This document shows, piece by piece, positions 6,726-24,078 of a DNA stretch of 51,328 bases. A program made the translations under genes and the position numbers. Position 1 is the stretch's first letter. Every line of letters starts with the position of its first letter. This stretch comes from Geodermatophilus sp. YIM 151500 (lineage in GTDB: Bacteria > Actinomycetota > Actinomycetes > Mycobacteriales > Geodermatophilaceae). The stretch spans positions 184,848 through 236,175 of the forward strand of contig NZ_JAOVZT010000006.1 in assembly GCF_025716945.1 (NCBI RefSeq), read 5' to 3'. A model generated the notes under the pieces. It searched no databases. It was not told the DNA's origin and worked only from the letters and a program-made list of their open reading frames with translations.

Positions 6726-6878
6726 TCGCTGGGCGGCGGCCTCCGGGCCCGACCCGACCGGAAGGGGTGTGCCAGGGGCCTCCGGCCCTGCTCTTGGCTG
6801 CGCAGAGCTGTCATGCTGTAGCCGTGCGTGCACGGTGTGGCTCCATGGGGACGGGTTCCCCCCGACGGGTCACCGGGC

Positions 6879-6904
6879 TCAACGGTTCCGGTGCCCGTGC
6901 CGAT
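6879..6904 (+). promoter_or_regulatory. Sigma-28-like promoter element, copy 1
   Basis: TCAA (6879-6882), a 16-base spacer, then GCCGAT (6899-6904), 29 bases upstream of the GTG start of the GGDEF protein. The same element with identical spacing precedes the other two c-di-GMP units (15526-15551 and 32192-32217). It resembles the FliA/WhiG consensus TAAA-N15-GCCGATAA. Confidence 0.6.
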
Positions 6905-6933
6905 GCCCCTGCCGTGCGCAGGGGAGGGGCGCC

Positions 6934-9000
6934 GTGATCGCGGCGGAGGCGAGGGAGACGTCGGGGGCGACCACCGGCGTCCTCCTGCGGTACGTGCGCG
7001 GCCAGGGCGGTGACGAGGCGGTCGCCGCGGTGCTCGCCCGCGCCGGCGTGCCCTGGACGCCCGAGGAGCTCGACGACCAGTCCCGCTGGTGGAGCTACGA
7101 CACCCGCATCCGGCTGTTCACCGCGGCGACCGAGGTGCTCGGCTCCCCCGACACGATGTTCCGGGTGGGAGCGGCTGCCCTGGAGAGCGGCCTGGCCCAC
7201 TCGCTGGTCATCCTGCTGCGCGCGATGGGCAGTCCCCGCCAGGTGTTCCGGCAGCTGCCCCGCGCGGTGACCAAGTTCAGCACCACCTCGACCATGGAGA
7301 TCCTCGACGTCGGTCCGACGTCGGCGGTCATCCGCTACCGGCTGCACGAGGGGTACGAGCACTCGCGGCTGGACTGCATCTACGCCCAGGGCCTGATCAG
7401 CACGGTGCCGGTCGTGTTCGGGCTCGCGCCGGCGCGCATCGAGCACGACGAGTGCGAGTCCGACGGTGCGCCCGCCTGCACCTACCGGCTGACCTGGGAG
7501 CGGCGGACCCGGCTGCCGCGCCGCCGCCGCGACCGGCCGGCCGTCGACCCCGAGCTGACGGCGCTGCGCGGCCAGCTGCAGACCCTGCAGTCCGCGGCCA
7601 CCGACCTGGTGGCCAGCGACGACCTCGGCACCGTGCTCCGGCGCATCGTCGAGCGCGCCGCGCAGGCCGTGCTCGCGCCGGCGTACCTGCTGGCGGTGTC
7701 CGCGCCGGACGGCGGGCCGCCGCTGGTGCACAGCGCGGGCCTGCCGGAGGAGGAGGTGCCGCGCCTGGCAGCCACCCTGCTCGACGGCGGCGACCTGGGC
7801 CCCGGCGCCGTCGTCGTGGACGTGGCCTCGGCGCGCCGGGCGCACGGCCGGCTGGCCGCGCTGTACCGGCCCGGTGACGGCGCGATGGGTGACGAGGCGT
7901 CGATGCTGTCGGCCTACGCGGGGCACGCGGCGGCCGCGCTCGACCTGCTCATCGCCCTGGAGGAGGCCCGCCAGGAGGCCCAGCGCGCCGGCGCGCTGCT
8001 GTCGCTGGCGCACGAACTGGCGGCCGCCGTCGACGAGGCCGCGGTGTGCGCCGTCGTCTCCGACGCGCTGCCGCGCATCGTCGGCTGCCGGCGGGCCGGC
8101 ATCCTGCTGTGGGACGCCTCGTCGGCGTCGCTGCGGTCGCGGGCCAACTCCGGCCTCGACGACCGGGCCGTGGCCCTGCTCGCGCGCAGCCCGATCCGCG
8201 CCGAGGACGCACCGGAACTGGTCGGCATGCTCACCGACCGGGCGCCGCGCATCCTGGAGGCCGAGACCAGCAGCCCGGTCATCCAGGGGCTGCTGCGGGC
8301 CATCGGGACCGCGGACCTGGTTGCGGTGCCGCTGCAGGCGGGCGGCGCGTTCCTCGGCGTCGCCACGGTGGGCTGGGAGGGCGGCGAGGCGCCGGCCTCG
8401 CTCGGCGGGGACGTGCTGGCCCGGCTGCTCGGCGTGGCCGACCAGGCCTCGACGGCGCTGCAGAAGGCCCGGCTGCTGGAGACGGTGCGCCACCAGGCCC
8501 TGCACGACCCGCTGACCGGTCTGCCCAACCGCGTCCTGTTCGTCGAGCGGCTCGAGCGCGCGGTGGAGCAGGCCGGACCCGACGCGCACCTGGCCGTGTT
8601 CTTCTGCGACCTGGACCTGTTCAAGGAGGTCAACGACAGCCTCGGGCACGCCGCCGGGGACGAGCTGCTGCGCCAGGTCGCCGCGCGGCTGCGGGCCGCC
8701 GTCCGTCCCGGGGACACCGTCGGCCGGCTCAGCGGCGACGAGTTCGCCATCATCCTGCCCGGCCTGGTGGAGCCGACCGACGTCGAAGGCCTCGTGCGCC
8801 GGGTCACCGGCTGCTTCGACGAGGCGTTCCGGCTGGAGGGCACCGACGTCACGGTGGGCACCAGCGTCGGTGTCGCCGTCCACGGGTCCGGTGGCGACCG
8901 GTCGGCCGAGCAGCTGCTCCGCGAGGCCGACGCGGCGATGTACCGCGACAAGCAACGCAACCGCACGCCCGCCGCACCCGCCGACCGACCGGCCGACTGA
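6934..9000 (+). CDS. Sensory diguanylate cyclase (V4R-like, GAF, GAF, GGDEF)
   Basis: This 688-aa protein has no membrane segment and probably makes c-di-GMP in response to a cytoplasmic signal. The first 190 residues look like a V4R/AraC-N-type ligand-binding domain ending in ECESDGAPACTYRLTW. Two GAF-like domains follow (about 205-345 and 350-510), then GGDEF from about 525 (HDPLTGLPNRVLF). The active site reads SGDEF instead of GGDEF, a substitution tolerated in some active cyclases. The inhibitory I-site RxxD (RPGD) lies five residues before it. The GTG at 6934 follows AGGGGAGGGG; the longer frame from 6769 is low-complexity and would include the promoter. It converges with the phosphatase gene, 18 bases away. 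Confidence 0.85.
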   Translation: MIAAEARETSGATTGVLLRYVRGQGGDEAVAAVLARAGVPWTPEELDDQSRWWSYDTRIRLFTAATEVLGSPDTMFRVGAAALESGLAHSLVILLRAMGSPRQVFRQLPRAVTKFSTTSTMEILDVGPTSAVIRYRLHEGYEHSRLDCIYAQGLISTVPVVFGLAPARIEHDECESDGAPACTYRLTWERRTRLPRRRRDRPAVDPELTALRGQLQTLQSAATDLVASDDLGTVLRRIVERAAQAVLAPAYLLAVSAPDGGPPLVHSAGLPEEEVPRLAATLLDGGDLGPGAVVVDVASARRAHGRLAALYRPGDGAMGDEASMLSAYAGHAAAALDLLIALEEARQEAQRAGALLSLAHELAAAVDEAAVCAVVSDALPRIVGCRRAGILLWDASSASLRSRANSGLDDRAVALLARSPIRAEDAPELVGMLTDRAPRILEAETSSPVIQGLLRAIGTADLVAVPLQAGGAFLGVATVGWEGGEAPASLGGDVLARLLGVADQASTALQKARLLETVRHQALHDPLTGLPNRVLFVERLERAVEQAGPDAHLAVFFCDLDLFKEVNDSLGHAAGDELLRQVAARLRAAVRPGDTVGRLSGDEFAIILPGLVEPTDVEGLVRRVTGCFDEAFRLEGTDVTVGTSVGVAVHGSGGDRSAEQLLREADAAMYRDKQRNRTPAAPADRPAD

Positions 9001-15419: not shown

Positions 15420-15448
15420 CTACCAGCGGGTAACAAACGGTATTACCG
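15420..15448. promoter_or_regulatory. Operator-like repeats upstream of the acyl-CoA dehydrogenase
   Basis: CTACCAGCGGGTAAC (15420-15434) matches TTACTCACGGGTAAC at 45067-45081 in 10 of 15 positions, including the whole of CGGGTAAC. Next to it is the 11-bp palindrome CGGTA-T-TACCG (15438-15448). The site is 36-64 bases upstream of the start, where a TetR-type repressor of fatty-acid genes would act. The regulator is not identified. Confidence 0.5.
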
Positions 15449-15560: not shown

Positions 15561-16502
15561 GTGAAGCGACCGATCCTCGCCCTCGCCGTGTCCGCACTGG
15601 CCGTCCTCTCCGCCGGGTGCGGCACCCCCGCGGGGGCCGACGAGCCCGCGGCCACCCCGACCCGGGCGCCCGAGGGCCCGCGGACGACCCTCGTCGTCGG
15701 GTCGGTCAGCGACGACCCGGAGGAGGAGGCCGAGGTCTTCCAGCCCTTCGCCGACCACGTGGCCGCCCAGCTGGCCGACGCGGGTGTCACCGGCGGCGAG
15801 GTCGCGGTGGCCGCCACGACCGAGGAGATGGCCGAACTGCTCCGCACCGGCGCGGTCGACCTGTACGTCGACAGCATGTACGGCGCCACCCGGGTGGTCG
15901 CCGACGGCGCCGCGGCTCCGCTGCTGCGCCGGTGGAAGGACGGCACGCCCGAGTACCACAGCGTGGTCGTCGCCCGGGCCGACAGCGGCCTGACCTCGCT
16001 GGCGCAGCTGGCGGGCCGCACCGTCGCCTTCGAGGAGGACACCTCGACCGACGGCTGGTTCCTCCCGGCCGCCACCGTGCTGGAGCAGGGCCTGCCGATG
16101 GTGGAGCAGGAGCGCCCCGACGCCGAGCCGGTGCCGGGGACGGTCGGGTACGTCTTCTCCGGGGACGACGAGAACACCGTGTTCCAGGTGCTCCAGGGTC
16201 TCGTCGACGCCGGGGCGCTGAGCGAGGAGGACCTCGCCGAGAACGCGGGGTCGCGCGCCGGCGAGCTGGTCGTCCTCGGTCGCACGATCGCCGTCCCCCG
16301 GCACGGCGTCGTCGCGCGGGTCGACCTCGACCCGGCGGTCCGCGACGCCGTCGTCGCGGTGCTCACCGCGCTGCACGAGGACGCCGAGGGTCGCGCGGTC
16401 CTCGAGGAGTTCGACGGCACCGCCCGCTTCGACGTGCTGCCGCCCGAGGGGCTGGAGCCCATCCTGCGGCTGCTGGCGGTCCTCGATGCCGGCACGGCGT
16501 GA
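15561..16502 (+). CDS. PhnD-like substrate-binding lipoprotein
   Basis: This 313-aa protein starts with a lipoprotein signal ([20 protein letters not shown], lipobox LSAGC), so it is probably anchored outside the membrane. The remainder is a phosphate/phosphite/phosphonate binding-protein fold of the PhnD type: [64 protein letters not shown]. No ABC permease or ATPase is nearby. It overlaps the next gene, a membrane GGDEF-EAL protein, by 17 bases, so it more likely acts as a ligand-sensing partner than as a transporter part. NspS-MbaA of Vibrio is a precedent for a binding protein paired with a GGDEF-EAL receptor. The ligand is unknown. Confidence 0.85.
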
Positions 16503-19047
16503 CCCGGCGGGACCGGGGAGGCGCCGTCCGGGCGCCCTGCTCGGGCTGCGGGCCCGCTTCGCGCTGACCGTCGCCGCCGTCGTCGTCCCGTCCGGTCTCC
16601 TCACCACCCACCTGGCGGTCGAGCAACAGGTGGCGTCCCTGGAGCGGCACGCCGAGGAGAGCGTCCGCGGCATGCTGCTCCTGCTCGACTCCGGCGTGAC
16701 CAACCTGGTCGCCGCCGGCGACGTCTCCGGCCTGCACGACGTCCTCGGTGACGTCCGCCGGCACGAGGGCGTCGTCGAGGTGTCCGTTCTCGACGAGGAC
16801 GGCGTGCTGCTGGCCGACGGCACCCCCGGCGAGGAACGGCGGTTCACCGTCCCCGAGGTGCACGACTCGCTCCTGGAGCGCGTGGCCGGCGGCGGGGACG
16901 GGCCGGTGTTCCTGCGCGACGCCGCACACGGCGGCGCCGACCACATCGACGCCGCGCTGCCCCTGACCCTCGGCAGCCGCACGGTCGGTCTGGTCGTCGC
17001 GGAGTACTCGCTCGCCGGCGTTCGGGCCGACTCGGCCACGGCCCGGCGCACCGGCTTCGCCGTCGGTCTGCTGTTCACGGTGCTCGCGGTGGCGGCCGTG
17101 GCCCTGCTCGCCGGGCGCGTCACCCGAGCCCTCCACCGCATCACCGGGGCGGCCCGGGTGGCCGCCGACCGGCACCTGCCCGCCGTGCTGGCAGCCGTCC
17201 GCGAGGGCCGGGTCGTCACCGACGACCTGCTCCCCGAGCCGGTGCCGGCCGACGGCGGGGGACCCGAGGCGCGCCGGCTGGGCGACGCCCTCAACACCTA
17301 CCGCTCGGTCGTCACCGACATGGCGCGCACGCTGGCCCGCCTGCTGCGCGAGACCGACGCCCGCTTCGCCAGCGCCTTCGACGGGTCACCCGTCGGCATG
17401 GCGATCCTCGACCCGGCCGACGGCCGTCCAGTCGCGGTCAACGCGGCCCTGGCCCGGCTGCTCGGCCGCGGCCCCGATTCGCTGCAGGCGCTGCCACTGC
17501 CCGACCTGGTGCACCCGGAGGACCGGGCGGCCTACGAGGCCCGCACGACCGCGCTGCTGGACGGCGGGACGCCGCCCGCGCCGTTCGAGCTGCGTTTCGT
17601 GCGCGGCGACGGCGAGGTCGTCTGGACGACGGCCAGCGTCGCCCTGCACCGCGACGAGGACGGCGGTGTCCAGGCGACCTTCGTGCAGCTGGTCGACGCC
17701 TCCGCGCGCAAGCGGGCGGAGAACGACCTGGTGCGCATGGCCTACCACGACGCGCTCACCGAGCTGCCCAACCGGGCGCACCTGCTCGACACCCTCGAGC
17801 GGGCGCTGGCCCACGCGCGACGCACGGGCGCGCCGATGGCCGCCCTGCTGCTCGACGTCGACCACTTCAAGGTGGTCAACGACAGCCTCGGGCACGACGC
17901 CGGCGACGTGCTGCTGCGCGAGGTGGCCGCCCGCCTGCGCCGCGGGGTCCGGGAGGGCGACACGGTGGCCCGCTTCGGCGGTGACGAGTTCGTCGTCGTC
18001 GCGGAGGTCGAGTGCGACGAGGACGGCGCCGCGCTGCTGGCCCGGCGGATCCTGGACGCGCTCGCCGTCCCGGTCGTCGTCGACGGCCGCGACGTGCACG
18101 TCTCGGCGAGCATCGGCATCGCCGTCTCGCGCGGCGAGACCGACGCCCGGGGCCTGCTGCGGGACGCCGACACCGCCGCCTACTGGGCGAAGGCGCGCGG
18201 CCGGGCCCGCTCGGAGCTGTTCGACGACGACCTCCGCCGCCGGGCCGATGCGCGGCTGGAGACCGAGCAGGAGCTGCGCCAGGCCCTCGAGCGCGACGAG
18301 CTGGTGCCGTACTACCAACCGGTCGTCTCGACGGGCACCGGGGAGCTGCTCGGCTTCGAGGCCCTGGTGCGGTGGAACCACCCGACCCGAGGGGTGCTGA
18401 CCCCGGCCGCCTTCCTCGAGGTGGCGCTGGAGACCGGCCTGGTCGTGGCGATCGGCCGGCGGATGCTCGAGATCGCCTGCCGCGACCTGGCCGCGTGGGA
18501 CGCCGCGGGTGCCGGCCGACCGTGGGTGTCCGTGAACATCGACGCCCAGCAGCTGCACCTGGACGGTTTCGCCGACGACGTCGAGCGCGTCCTGACCGAG
18601 ACGGGCACCGCGCCCGACCGGCTGCGCCTCGAGCTGACCGAGAACGCCTTCCTCGACCTGGGCTCCGTGGAGGCGACCCGCCGGCTCCGGGCCCTCGGCG
18701 TGCGCCTCGCCGTCGACGACTTCGGCACCGGCTACTCGTCGCTGCACTACCTGCGCCGGCTGCCCGTCGACATCCTGAAGATCGACCGCTCCTTCCTCGA
18801 GGACCTCTCGGCCGATCCGCAGGCCGCCGCGGTCGTGCGCGCCATCGTCGAGCTCTCGCACACCATGGCCCTGACCGTGGTCGCGGAGGGCGTGGAGACC
18901 CCCGAGCAGCTGGCCGCGCTCGACCGCATCGGCTGCGACGCCTCCCAGGGGTACCTGATCGCCCGCCCGATGCCGGCGGCGGCGGTGACCGGTTTCCTGG
19001 ACGCGGACCGGGTGGGCGGTGACGCGCTCGTCGGCGGAGCGGTCTGA
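16486..19047 (+). CDS. Membrane GGDEF-EAL c-di-GMP enzyme with PAS domain
   Basis: This 853-aa protein has one transmembrane helix (about 25-45), an extracellular sensor region (about 45-180), a second helix (about 185-210), a HAMP-like linker, a PAS domain (about 295-420), a GGDEF domain (from about 425) and an EAL domain (about 600-840). The cyclase site is intact ([11 protein letters not shown]) with an I-site REGD five residues before it. The phosphodiesterase keeps [30 protein letters not shown] and KIDRSFL. Both activities are therefore possible. It starts inside the PhnD-like lipoprotein gene, which suggests that the lipoprotein presents its ligand to the extracellular loop. Confidence 0.92.
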
Positions 19048-19055
19048 CCGCGGCC

Positions 19056-19481
19056 TCAGTCCTTCCGGCCGCGGCCCCGCAGGGCCAGCCCCGCGAGCCC
19101 GACCACGAGGCCGCCGAGGACGGCGGCGATGACCAGGGCCAGCACCAGCGGCGCGGTGACGTCGCCGAACACCAGGCTGACGGCGACGGTCTGGGTGTTG
19201 AACATGACGAAGAGCACGAGCAGGACCGTGACGAAGACCAGCAGTGCCGCTGCCAGCGTCAGGCCGACGCCCCGGCCCCGGCCGCCCTTGCGCTTTCCGA
19301 CGCGCGACGCGGTCCGGCCGGCCGCCGGTGCCGACTTCGGCGGTGCGGAGGGCCCGCCGGACGGCGGTGCGGAGGGCCCGCCGGACGGCGGTGCGGAGGA
19401 TCCGCCGGACGGCGGTGCGGAGGATCCGCCGGACGGACCCGCCGCGTTCGGGCCGGAGGGACGCGAACCCGGGCTGGTCAT
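19056..19481 (-). CDS. LapA-domain membrane protein
   Basis: This 141-aa protein has a disordered N-terminus (residues 1-65) with four GG(S/P)SAPPS repeats, then two hydrophobic helices, LTLAAALLVFVTVLLVLFVMF and the APLVLALVIAAVLGGLVVGLAG segment, joined by a short NTQTVAVSLVFGDVT turn. This pair with the N-T-Q-x-V turn is the LapA/DUF1049 signature. In other bacteria relatives assist envelope or lipopolysaccharide assembly; in actinobacteria the role is unknown. It converges with the GGDEF-EAL gene with only 8 bases between stops. The N-terminal repeats come from a 24-bp tandem DNA repeat. Confidence 0.85.
   Translation of the reverse strand: MTSPGSRPSGPNAAGPSGGSSAPPSGGSSAPPSGGPSAPPSGGPSAPPKSAPAAGRTASRVGKRKGGRGRGVGLTLAAALLVFVTVLLVLFVMFNTQTVAVSLVFGDVTAPLVLALVIAAVLGGLVVGLAGLALRGRGRKD
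19338..19433. repeat. 24-bp tandem repeat, four copies, inside the LapA-like gene
   Basis: Four consecutive 24-bp units start at 19338, 19362, 19386 and 19410. Copies 1-2 and 3-4 are pairwise near-identical (GGGCCC versus GGATCC in the centre). The units stay in frame and encode the G-G-x-S-A-P-P-S repeats, so copy-number change would be silent for the membrane domain. Confidence 0.85.
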
Positions 19482-21191: not shown

Positions 21192-22091
21192 TCACGTCGC
21201 GGTGGCCCGGGGAACGTGGTGGGCGTCGACGAACGGGGTCGCCCGCCACCGCCGCCGTCGTCCTCGACCGGTCACCAGGAGGACCACGGCCCACGCGAGC
21301 ACGGCGATCCCGACGACGAAGGCGCTCGGCGGCAGCGGCAGCACCGCGGACAGCACCAGGCCGAGCCACACCGACGCGAGCGCGAGCGTGACGGCGATGG
21401 CCGCCACCCGCCCCGGCCGGGCGGTCAGCCGCAGGGCCGTGGCCGCCGGGGTGACGACGAGCGCGAAGAGCAGCAGCGTGCCCACGACCTGGACGGCCAT
21501 CGTGATGGTGAGCGCGAGCAGCACGACGAAGCCGACTCCCAGCGCGCGCACCGGCACGCCCCGGGCCTCGGCCACGGCCGGGTCGACCGACGCGAAGGCC
21601 AGCGGGCGCGCGATCCAGGCCAGCACCAGCACGACCAGCGCGGTGAAGACCGCGAACAGGCGCAACTGCCCCGACGAGATGGCCAGCAGGTTGCCGAACA
21701 GCACCGAGGTCGTCGCACCCGCGGTCGCGCCGGCCAGGGAGGCGAACAGCACGCCGAGCCCGGTGGCCGCGGCCAGGACCGTGCCGGTGGTGATCTCGCG
21801 GTCGGCCACCCGCGCGCCGGACAGGCCGATCAACAGGCCTCCGCCGACGCAGAAGACGGCCAGGCCCAGGGTGACCGGCAGCCCGAGCAGCAGCGCGCCC
21901 GTGGCACCGGGGAACCCGATGTGCGCCAGCGCGTGGGCGGCGAAAGCGTTCTGCCGGGTGACCACGAAGAACCCCAGCAGCCCCGCGGCCAGGGCGACGA
22001 GCGAGCCGCCGAGGAAGGCGTTGCGCATGAACGGCGCCTGCAGGATCTCCAGCCAGTCCGGCTGCACCGCGATCGCGGCCGGCCGGGTCAC
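21192..22091 (-). CDS. znuB: Zinc ABC transporter permease
   Basis: This 299-aa inner-membrane protein has eight to nine hydrophobic helices and the ABC-3 family pattern: PFMRNAFLGGSLVALAAGLLGFFVV at the start, then the LAHIGFPGATGALLLG loop that contacts the ATPase, and late ALVVTPAATALRLTARPGR. It forms the channel for Zn(II), or possibly Mn(II), delivered by ZnuA. The GTG start overlaps the znuC stop by 4 bases. The C-terminal tail (RRRRWRATPFVDAHHVPRATAT) is basic, with two histidines. The metal assignment rests on the Zur box and the His-rich ZnuA. Confidence 0.92.
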   Translation of the reverse strand: MTRPAAIAVQPDWLEILQAPFMRNAFLGGSLVALAAGLLGFFVVTRQNAFAAHALAHIGFPGATGALLLGLPVTLGLAVFCVGGGLLIGLSGARVADREITTGTVLAAATGLGVLFASLAGATAGATTSVLFGNLLAISSGQLRLFAVFTALVVLVLAWIARPLAFASVDPAVAEARGVPVRALGVGFVVLLALTITMAVQVVGTLLLFALVVTPAATALRLTARPGRVAAIAVTLALASVWLGLVLSAVLPLPPSAFVVGIAVLAWAVVLLVTGRGRRRRWRATPFVDAHHVPRATAT

Positions 22092-22951
22092 GAGGCACGC
22101 TCCGGCCGGTCCGCGGTCGGGGACGGCGTGCCGCGCGCGGGCAGCGCGCCGCGGGTGAACAGGTCCCCCTGCGCGGTGCGGACGACGCGCACCGGGGTGC
22201 CGTAGAGGTGGGTGAGCAGGTCCTCCTGCACGACCTCGCCGATCGGGTCGTGGTGCGGGTGGCCGTCGAGCAGGTAGAGCGCGTCGGTGAGCACCGGCAG
22301 CAGCGGGTTGAGGTCGTGCGCGACGACCATGATGGTGACGTCGCGCTCGCGGCGGAGCTCACCGAGCAGCGCGACGACCTCGTGCTGGTTGCGCAGGTCG
22401 AGGTTGGCCAGCGGCTCGTCGAGCAGCAGCAGTTCGGCGTCGTCGACGATGGCCTGGGCGATCGCGACGCGCTGCTGCTGGCCGCCGGACAGTTCCGACA
22501 TCCGCCGGTCACCCAGCTCGGCGGCGCCCACCCGGCGCAGCGCGGCGTCCACCCGGGCGTGCTGCTCGCGGGTCATCCGCCGCAGCCCGAAGCGGGCGCC
22601 GGTCAGCGCCAGGCCGACGAGATCGCGGCAGCGGACGGCGTCGCCCAGCGCTGCGGTGTAGTTCTGCGGCACGTACCCGATTCGCCGGTCGCCCCGTCTC
22701 GGCGGTGCTCCGAGCACCTCGACCCGGCCGGCCGCCACCGGCAGCAGGCCCAGCACCACCTGGAACAGCGTGGTCTTGCCCGCCCCGTTCGGACCGATGA
22801 CCCCGACCACCGAGCCCGACGGCACGGTCAGATCGCCCTGCGACCAGACGGTGTGGCCGGCGCGGGCGACCGCGACGCCGTCCAGCACCAGGGCCGGCGG
22901 GCGGCCGGCAGCAGCGCCCGTGGTGAGGGAGTCCGCGGCCGGCGCCGTCAC
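22088..22951 (-). CDS. znuC: Zinc ABC transporter ATP-binding protein
   Basis: This 287-aa ATPase drives uptake through ZnuB. Walker A is GPNGAGKTT, the Q-loop is GYVPQN, the signature is LSGGQQQRVAIAQAI, Walker B is ELLLLDEPLANLD and the switch His is in VVAHDLNPLL. I use the GTG at 22951, which overlaps the znuA stop by 4 bases, instead of an upstream start at 23002 inside znuA. The order on the mRNA is znuA, znuC, znuB, all coupled. The C-terminal 30 residues after LFTRGALP are low-complexity. Confidence 0.93.
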   Translation of the reverse strand: MTAPAADSLTTGAAAGRPPALVLDGVAVARAGHTVWSQGDLTVPSGSVVGVIGPNGAGKTTLFQVVLGLLPVAAGRVEVLGAPPRRGDRRIGYVPQNYTAALGDAVRCRDLVGLALTGARFGLRRMTREQHARVDAALRRVGAAELGDRRMSELSGGQQQRVAIAQAIVDDAELLLLDEPLANLDLRNQHEVVALLGELRRERDVTIMVVAHDLNPLLPVLTDALYLLDGHPHHDPIGEVVQEDLLTHLYGTPVRVVRTAQGDLFTRGALPARGTPSPTADRPERAS

Positions 22952-24045
22952 GGCGTCCCGCCGAGCGCGGCGGCGAGGGCGGCGAGCTGGTCGGTCTGCC
23001 ACGCGACGAAGGAACCCGCACCGTCAGGAGCCGATTCCGTCACCTCGACGACGGGGACGTCACCCTCCTCGGCGAGCGTGCGCACCTGCTCCGGCAGCGC
23101 CCCGGCCGTCTGCCCGTTCACCACGAGCACGTCGGCCCGCTGCAGCGCGTCCTGCATCGCCGCCAGGTCCGCGGGGGCGGGCTCGCCGCCCCCGGCGACG
23201 GCGTCTCGGAAGCCCTCCGGCGTGGCGTCGGCGAGGCCTACCGCCCGGGCGGTGCGGTCGAAGACGGGTTCGGTCGCGACGTAGCTGCGGCCCGCAGCGG
23301 CCCGCGTCAGCTCGTCGAGCGCCGCCCGGTACGGCTCGAGCGCCGTCGTCCAGGCCTGCGCACCGGCCGCGAAGGAATCCGTCGCACCGGGCGAGAGCTC
23401 GGTCAGGGCCGCGGCGACGGCGGTGGCGGTCTCCTCGACCAGGACCGGGTCGTTCCACAGGTGCGGGTCGGCCCCGCCGTGCTGGTGCCCGGCATGTTCG
23501 TCCGCGCCGGCTTCCCGGGCCGCGCGGGCCCCGTGCTCCTGGCCGGCCTCCTGCTCCTGGCCGGCCTCGTGCTCCTCGCCGGCCTCGTGCTCCTGGCCGG
23601 CCTCGTGCTCCTCGCCGGCCGCGCTGCCGGCGGGGGGCTCGAGGCCGGCCACCGCGGCGACGTCCACGACGGCGGGGGCCGGGTCCACGGCCGTGACGGC
23701 GTCCTCGGCCCAGCCGTCGTAGCCCGCCCCGTTGAGCACGACCAGGTCGGCGCCGCCGAACGCGGCCAGGTCACCGGTCGTCGGCTCGAACTCGTGCGGG
23801 TCGACCGATCCGGAGGTCAGCACGGTCGTGACCGACGCGCAGTCCCCGCCGACGGTCGCGACCAGGTCCGACCACTGGGCGACCGAGACGACCACGTCGA
23901 CCACGTCACCGGGGCACGCGGCCGCGTCGCCGGGCGCGGTCGCGGCCCGGTTGACCGCACCACCGTCGGCGGCGCAGCCGGCGGCCCCGGTCACGAGGCC
24001 CACGGCGAGAGCGGGGACGGCGAGCCGGACGGCGGCGCGGGGCAC
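22948..24045 (-). CDS. znuA: Zinc-binding lipoprotein of the ZnuABC transporter
   Basis: This lipoprotein of about 365 aa captures Zn(II) outside the membrane for ZnuBC. The signal peptide ends at the lipobox VTGAAGC. The cluster A-I fold shows the first metal ligand in SVDPHEFEPTTGDLAAF, a His/Glu-rich mobile loop, then the second ligand in HQHGGADPHLWNDP. The loop consists of E-A-G-(Q/E)-E-H units, typical of zinc rather than manganese binders. The GTG at 24045 is chosen because GGAGG lies 8 bases upstream; the TTG at 24069 would start inside the Zur box. First gene of the operon. Confidence 0.93.
   Translation of the reverse strand: MPRAAVRLAVPALAVGLVTGAAGCAADGGAVNRAATAPGDAAACPGDVVDVVVSVAQWSDLVATVGGDCASVTTVLTSGSVDPHEFEPTTGDLAAFGGADLVVLNGAGYDGWAEDAVTAVDPAPAVVDVAAVAGLEPPAGSAAGEEHEAGQEHEAGEEHEAGQEQEAGQEHGARAAREAGADEHAGHQHGGADPHLWNDPVLVEETATAVAAALTELSPGATDSFAAGAQAWTTALEPYRAALDELTRAAAGRSYVATEPVFDRTARAVGLADATPEGFRDAVAGGGEPAPADLAAMQDALQRADVLVVNGQTAGALPEQVRTLAEEGDVPVVEVTESAPDGAGSFVAWQTDQLAALAAALGGTP
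23533..23622. repeat. 18-bp tandem repeat encoding the ZnuA His-rich loop
   Basis: Five 18-bp units (starts 23533, 23551, 23569, 23587 and 23605) differ by one or two bases and encode E-A-G-x-E-H/Q repeats on the minus strand. One unit change alters the number of zinc-binding histidines without a frameshift. Confidence 0.85.
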
Positions 24046-24063
24046 GGCAGGAACCTCCACTAA

Positions 24064-24078
24064 TGACAATGATTGTCA
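24064..24078. promoter_or_regulatory. Zur box of the znuACB operon
   Basis: TGACAAT-G-ATTGTCA is a perfect 7-1-7 palindrome close to the actinobacterial Zur consensus TGAAAATGATTTTCA. It lies 18 bases upstream of the znuA GTG and just before its ribosome binding site. A CATACT -10-like hexamer on the minus strand at 24086-24091 would place transcription start at the box, so Zur-Zn binding would block the operon. Confidence 0.85.

Follow-up and report, generated by a model that had tools for sequence, protein, structure and literature searches.

A receptor-diguanylate cyclase pair, XAC2383-XAC2382 of Xanthomonas citri, is said to have been described by Teixeira et al. in 2018 (J Biol Chem 293:10767). 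Here, we describe a pair of overlapping genes, distantly related to that receptor, in the actinobacterium Geodermatophilus sp. YIM 151500. It is carried by a stretch of 51,328 nucleotides (assembly GCF_025716945.1, contig NZ_JAOVZT010000006.1, positions 184,848 to 236,175), hereafter called the window. The first gene encodes a PhnD-like solute-binding lipoprotein and the second a membrane protein with PAS, GGDEF and EAL domains. Comparison with homologues makes it quite probable that the two proteins together act as a bipartite extracytoplasmic receptor, similar in kind to XAC2383-XAC2382, that controls cyclic diguanylate (c-di-GMP).

Two other systems serve as points of comparison. NspS is a binding protein of the polyamine, PotD-like family. 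In Vibrio cholerae, the binding protein of the NspS-MbaA system toggles a membrane GGDEF-EAL enzyme between synthesis and degradation of c-di-GMP, so that both activities follow the occupancy of the ligand site (PMC8967002). The PhnD-like binding proteins of AioX-AioS and of ArrX sense arsenic oxyanions through a membrane partner, a histidine kinase (PMC5908839). XAC2383 itself appears in a table of PMC10942540.

The lipoprotein and its partner are encoded by overlapping frames

The lipoprotein frame occupies window positions 15561..16502 of the plus strand (GTG start, 313 amino acids) and the partner frame positions 16486..19047 of the same strand (ATG start, 853 amino acids). The two open reading frames (ORFs) share 17 bases (16486..16502), and both look like coding DNA because their third-position GC contents are 0.97 and 0.96, respectively. 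They encode two separate overlapping proteins, with no fusion. Junction sequences of the orthologous pairs, L022 and L035, likewise show overlaps, of 14 bases each, and the 17-base overlap probably reflects translational coupling. Neither a sigma-70-like promoter nor a terminator was found for the pair, a result of little weight at 75% GC.

The lipoprotein matches Pfam family PF12974 (Phosphonate-bd, E 2.3e-46). Its N-terminus has a hydrophobic stretch (residues 3-24) and the sequence LSAGC, which fits the lipobox pattern. In the partner, hydropathy places two hydrophobic stretches (approximately residues 16-45 and 188-216) on either side of some 140 extracellular residues. This extracellular part (approximately residues 46-187; 16621..17046, plus strand, as for the domains below) has a predicted Cache fold, based on hydropathy, a structural model and fold matches. 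Beyond the second transmembrane helix, a HAMP-like linker is followed by a PAS domain found by domain search (residues 298-410; 17377..17715), a GGDEF domain with its GGDEF motif and the inhibitory RxxD I-site (residues 419-574; 17740..18207) and an EAL domain (residues 595-828; 18268..18969). The latter contains the usual motifs of such domains, EAL, N..Q, E.TE, DDFGTG, KID, EGVE and QG. Two weaker hydrophobic calls, at 514-532 and 637-656, fall within the GGDEF and EAL domains. As the catalytic motifs of both domains are intact, synthesis and breakdown of c-di-GMP are both possible.

ORFs and domains thus confirm the original prediction of a PhnD-like lipoprotein overlapping a protein of this architecture by 17 bases. 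Its statement that no ABC (ATP-binding cassette) transporter goes with the pair also holds: neither phnC nor phnE is found beside the pair in the window, and the only ABC genes seen near it there form a ZnuABC-like set on the opposite strand (21192-24069), about 2 kb past the partner end. The source genome gave 19 EAL matches and five PF12974 matches, three of them above cut-off; the pair is therefore one input among many.

The lipoprotein belongs to the clade of XAC2383

Used as a single protein query against solved structures, the lipoprotein best matched 5ub3 (E 1.4e-33), far ahead of the runner-up (2.4e-8). The PDB titles describe 5ub3 as XAC2383 with chloride and 5ub7 as XAC2383 with ATP. 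A profile of six clade members reached 2.7e-91 to 5ub3 as compared to 2.1e-21 to PtxB; because this profile includes the Xanthomonas sacchari protein, itself close to XAC2383 (4.7e-118 to 5ub3), the single-protein score gives a fairer picture. Identity between the window lipoprotein and XAC2383 is 29-30%. An AlphaFold2 model of the lipoprotein (mean pLDDT, the predicted local distance difference test, 88.9) matched XAC2383 with a Z of 33.7 (2.4 Å over 273 residues), the second family being PtxB with a Z of 24.6. After the PhnD-like proteins, transferrin lobes were the closest fold neighbours of the model. The lipoprotein scored below the cut-offs of the PhnD equivalog TIGR03431 (77.1 bits vs 261.1) and of TIGR01098 (94 vs 112). 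In the domain search, there was no match to a polyamine-type (PotD-like) family, and only PF12974 and a sub-threshold NMT1 were returned.

The lipoprotein was then searched in 96 Geodermatophilaceae genomes, and the sensor region of the partner in all 112 genomes of the family. Lipoprotein matches were obtained at 21 places in 20 genomes. By tblastn, a GGDEF-EAL partner adjoins at three of them (the window, G069 and G061; 64-100% identity), and an ABC ATPase lies within the fetched 1.5 kb at 16 distant places. The other two (L017 and L020) have neither, form their own branch in the tree described below and show no PhnC/PhnE within about 6 kb. The sensor region was detected in the same three genomes that carry a close lipoprotein. 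At the level of the order, four of 298 genomes matched at E 1e-12, two of them paired (the window and G061) and two ABC-linked. A phylum search at 1e-15 (396 genomes), a class profile search at 1e-25 (394 genomes) and a sensor profile search in 200 genomes of the order each returned the window genome alone. Within this sample of actinobacteria, the pair thus occurs in Geodermatophilaceae only.

Among plasmid records, 87 matched the lipoprotein at 1e-8 and the neighbourhoods of 11 were inspected. Six carry PhnC and PhnE, as judged by annotation or, for L027 and L028, by tblastn. The other five, four from Leisingera and one from X. sacchari, fall into the signalling clade. The four Leisingera binding proteins (44.7-46.5% identity) are adjoined by a histidine kinase annotated as 'ATP-binding protein'; HisKA, HATPase and HAMP domains were found in L024, and the kinase half was matched in all four (L024, L025, L037 and L038). 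The X. sacchari binding protein (32%) is overlapped by four bases by the frame of a Cache-HAMP-GGDEF-EAL protein.

A maximum-likelihood tree was built from 27 rows, eight signalling-linked, 17 ABC-linked and two unlinked. The eight signalling-linked proteins form one clade (support 100/99), apart from the ABC-linked and unlinked rows, and none of 500 label shuffles clustered them as well. These eight rows represent three lineages only (three Geodermatophilaceae, four near-identical Leisingera and one Xanthomonas); the tree tool flags long branches, notably that of X. sacchari, and the 17 ABC-linked rows do not make up a single group as drawn. PhnC/PhnE neighbours were found for none of the eight inspected members of the signalling clade. 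The window lipoprotein is in the XAC2383 clade of PF12974, its placement relative to XAC2383 in the tree running through the X. sacchari orthologue. Overall, more distant homologues do sit with PhnC/PhnE, which had been raised as a possible objection to the original prediction, and those of the signalling clade do not. Pairing with a membrane sensor extends to other phyla, beyond close relatives, and is rare within Geodermatophilaceae (three of 112 genomes).

Some further neighbourhoods were recorded on the way. The Leisingera binding protein and kinase genes are located between TRAP transporter/IclR genes and plasmid rep genes. In L028 (Variovorax), a partial EAL match lies at the edge of the stretch (8415-8573), roughly 2 kb past the PhnE-like gene. 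L033 and L034 encode PhnD-like proteins on a separate branch, without PhnC/PhnE within about 6 kb; in the L033 protein, a signal peptide is not evident, and its gene adjoins an acyl-CoA dehydrogenase-like ORF.

Comparison with described systems

Like XAC2383-XAC2382, the window locus pairs a PF12974 member, which shares its clade and fold with XAC2383, with a c-di-GMP enzyme. In the window, the gene of this enzyme lies next door in the same direction, and its product is a membrane protein having an extracytoplasmic domain and a GGDEF output. The locus differs by its actinobacterial host, by its low identity to XAC2383 and by its pocket, described below. It also has a lipobox, whereas none is visible in the X. 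sacchari orthologue. Partners were compared using that of X. sacchari, which is GGDEF-EAL without PAS, as compared to PAS-GGDEF-EAL in the window.

As in NspS-MbaA, a binding protein goes with a membrane GGDEF-EAL partner having both catalytic motifs, and the coding regions overlap. However, the window lipoprotein belongs to PF12974. Membership of that system, to which the locus had been likened, is rejected on family, and the likeness is kept as an analogy. Like AioX and ArrX, the lipoprotein is PhnD-like and appears to serve sensing by way of a membrane partner. Unlike in those systems, the partner is no histidine kinase, and the AioX site residue Cys106 is absent, the lipobox cysteine being the sole cysteine of the window protein.

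The ligand pocket and the phosphorus question

According to PMC5700983, the Pseudomonas stutzeri PtxB site comprises Tyr49, Tyr94, Ser124, Thr125, Ser126 and His155, with Tyr203 and Asp16 at the cap, residues assigned here partly via the correspondence with a Trichodesmium protein. In the alignment, Tyr49, Tyr94, Ser124 and Thr125 become Thr87, Tyr132, Ser162 and Thr163 of the window lipoprotein, and Ser126, His155, Tyr203 and Asp16 become Asp164, Asp203, His248 and Asp51. Thus, the fold and four of the eight compared site or cap residues (Asp51, Tyr132, Ser162 and Thr163) are as in PhnD/PtxB/HtxB, unlike the STS-H motif, the separate clade and the lack of adjacent PhnC/PhnE. The oxyanion motif, STS in PtxB, reads S162-T163-D164-G165 (16044..16055, plus strand), and Asp203, at the position of the PtxB ligand His155, lies within G201-D202-D203-E204-N205 (16161..16175, plus strand).

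Asp164 and Asp203 are identical in all three actinobacterial pairs. In contrast, STS and His are kept in 15/15 aligned ABC-linked Geodermatophilaceae proteins (L002/L036 from the same genome as the window; L005-L016, L018 and L019 from 14 other genomes; L021 left out). Six ABC-linked plasmid proteins have STS, SAS or SES, with His in three and Tyr in three. The same positions carry SSS and Asp in Leisingera, STS and Glu in X. sacchari and STS and Lys in XAC2383. In addition, an SD[DEN]P insertion at the loop of the pocket-latching Asp16 of PtxB is present in 8/8 signalling rows and 0/25 other rows (24 genes), in two alignments.

The pair was originally proposed to sense a phosphorus compound, which could be phosphate, a phosphonate or a nucleotide. 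The PF12974 fold, the retained PtxB-type residues Ser162, Thr163, Tyr132 and Asp51 and the crystallisation of XAC2383 with ATP, as well as with chloride, favour this idea. Moreover, the His is not universal even among ABC-linked proteins, as shown by the plasmid proteins with Tyr, and site residues alone do not decide specificity in AioX and ArrX (PMC5908839). However, two acidic side chains at oxyanion contacts should repel phosphate. Because Asp occupies two of the four STS-H positions, plain phosphate or phosphonate is unlikely, and the ligand is probably no simple phosphorus oxyanion. Phosphorus sensing in any form appears doubtful to us, and this part of the original prediction is not retained.

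A more tentative proposal is that the lipoprotein may have changed ligand class. It would then bind a ligand that is cationic or contains a metal (either an amine or a metal plus an anion) and report it to c-di-GMP metabolism in a Gram-positive bacterium, the binding-protein/Cache unit being portable and joined to GGDEF-EAL enzymes and histidine kinases across phyla. The idea stems from the replacement of the oxyanion Ser and His by Asp164 and Asp203, with Tyr132 at the hinge and His248 at the cap. In the transferrin fold, a metal is bound together with an anion; this site, and the rank of transferrin lobes as next fold neighbours, would point to a metal. We consider the proposal as a whole unlikely, though worth stating.

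The sensor domain of the partner

The sensor regions were compared with few sequences per profile. With hhalign, the three actinobacterial sensors aligned with the Leisingera sensors at E 8e-10 (probability 96.5) and with that of the X. sacchari partner at E 3.2e-8 (probability 95.1). A sCache_3_2 match was sub-threshold in G069 (0.015) and proper in X. sacchari (5.6e-8). As a single query at E 0.01, the window sensor matched none of 72,556 plasmid records. The sensor model shows a long helix followed by a mixed sheet, and its fold matches are the sensor domains of WalK, DctB and CitA. Profile comparison thus indicates homology among the sensor domains of the various partners. Because the sensors appear homologous and the binding proteins fall into one clade, binding protein and Cache sensor would constitute a module kept together. 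Its output is either GGDEF-EAL or a histidine kinase, so that outputs would differ between bacteria while the module stays the same. The lipoprotein is expected to dock on the extracellular Cache domain of its partner.

The Cache domain could instead bind the ligand itself, the lipoprotein being a modulator or dispensable. The fold matches of the sensor model do include direct binders, DctB with succinate and CitA with citrate according to their titles. Yet the binding protein is retained beside homologous sensors with different outputs, in distant phyla, and we regard direct sensing without need of the lipoprotein as quite improbable.

Finally, the notion of an orphan binding protein that feeds a phosphate/phosphonate ABC transporter encoded elsewhere, next to a GGDEF-EAL gene by accident, is most improbable and is rejected on clade, neighbourhood and pocket: such a transporter exists in the genome (contig C53 carries a PhnD-type gene together with one PhnC-like gene and two that are PhnE-like), but it comes with a binding protein of its own, for which the best match among solved structures is 7s6g (PhnD with bound phosphate, by its PDB title), whereas the window lipoprotein has an altered oxyanion motif and lies in another clade, all eight sampled members of which occur with membrane signalling proteins, and the ORF overlap is kept in three genomes. 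In L022 and L035, a match resembling an ABC ATPase (about 30-34% to PhnC) lies some 4-5 kb upstream; it was discounted as a transporter for the orthologues because a similar match occurs in pair-less genomes and no PhnE-like match accompanies it.

A receptor model for the pair

Clade, pairing, a shared Cache-type sensor and the lack of PhnC/PhnE all favour a two-part receptor controlling c-di-GMP, as originally proposed, at the level of sequence comparison. In such a receptor, the lipoprotein would be anchored outside the cytoplasmic membrane and would close around a small ligand. Of its two states, one may dock on the extracellular Cache domain of the partner, presumably a dimer. The signal would then run through the second transmembrane helix and the HAMP-like linker to the PAS domain, and the balance between c-di-GMP synthesis by GGDEF and breakdown by EAL would shift, one way or the other, with the ligand. 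That the ligand state of the lipoprotein sets the two activities of the partner via the Cache domain is suggested by the analogy with NspS-MbaA.

Several observations weigh against this model. Cache domains can bind small ligands directly, so the input need not be the lipoprotein. No Pfam Cache domain was matched in the window sensor, whose BLAST matches to the Leisingera and X. sacchari sensors are weak (E 0.008-0.036) and whose model, built from three sequences, has a medium-confidence pLDDT of 71.9. Outside the phylum, relatives are few in number, and all of them were taken from plasmid records. The pair is rare (3/112 genomes) and decayed in some relatives, so that selection for it is not strong everywhere.

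Chromosomal place and history of the pair

All three pairs occupy one shared chromosomal place. One flank consists of a LapA-domain gene, a small conserved gene and a TetR gene. On the other flank, an acyl-CoA dehydrogenase gene is found in the window and in L035; no match to it was obtained near the L022 pair, where a short-chain dehydrogenase/reductase gene lies about 5 kb off. The small conserved gene is present in 98/112 family genomes. The place of the pair was examined at 30 of 98 places. The EAL end of the partner is intact at three and a mere remnant at three others (L049, L056 and L057); 18 loci reach the dehydrogenase gene without a partner match and six show neither within the stretch. 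In longer stretches from eight genomes, the three EAL-end remnants (in L073, L074 and L075) lie between the LapA-domain and dehydrogenase genes, with 80-90% identity and lengths of 116-162, 126-138 and 774-788 bases depending on the query pair. The longest one matches as four pieces in different frames. No partner remnant was present at this place in the other five stretches, and no lipoprotein remnant was seen. One GGDEF-like match (42%), located in L077 but roughly 8 kb away, was taken for another enzyme.

The single shared place and the EAL-end remnants in three relatives suggest that an ancestor of these genera probably carried the pair, which was then lost several times. A transfer into the window genome alone is rejected on account of the same place in three genomes and the remnants there in three others.

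A palindrome, GGTAAC-N5-GTATTACC, lies at 15429-15447, in the gap that separates the pair from the divergently oriented acyl-CoA dehydrogenase gene; shuffled sequences are expected to contain none, and L035 has a similar site. It is more likely an operator of the dehydrogenase gene than a regulatory site of the pair, because its stretch also has short matches upstream of the dehydrogenase gene in pair-less genomes.

Other features of the window were recorded. A LapA-like small membrane protein, so named by resemblance, is encoded at 19056-19481 on the minus strand and has a repeated Pro/Ser/Gly-rich N-terminal tail; in relatives, it is matched mostly in its membrane part only. A ZnuA-like lipoprotein (22948-24069, minus strand) contains a repeated Glu/His-rich stretch and its gene adjoins those of an ABC ATPase and a permease. 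A second GGDEF protein (6769-9000, plus strand, start uncertain) has an upstream sensory region and a GGDEF domain at about 8494-8964 (match 7e-44), in which the motif reads SGDEF.

Significance

The original prediction considered such a pair to be new. Its kind is already known, reportedly from X. citri, and the literature search of open papers, in which one query covered 15 of 835 hits, found no report of an actinobacterial one. The window locus is therefore a variant for which we found no report, actinobacterial, with a lipid-anchored binding protein, a PAS-GGDEF-EAL enzyme and an acidic pocket. It extends a receptor design known from proteobacteria to actinobacteria and shows one binding-protein/Cache module with different outputs in different bacteria. 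It also sets right an annotation that would be tempting here, 'phosphonate transporter binding protein'. The three intact pairs, set against close genomes that lack the pair or keep a remnant, provide a natural test set for the role of the receptor. If the change of ligand class is true, the binding-protein/Cache unit would be a portable input module across phyla.

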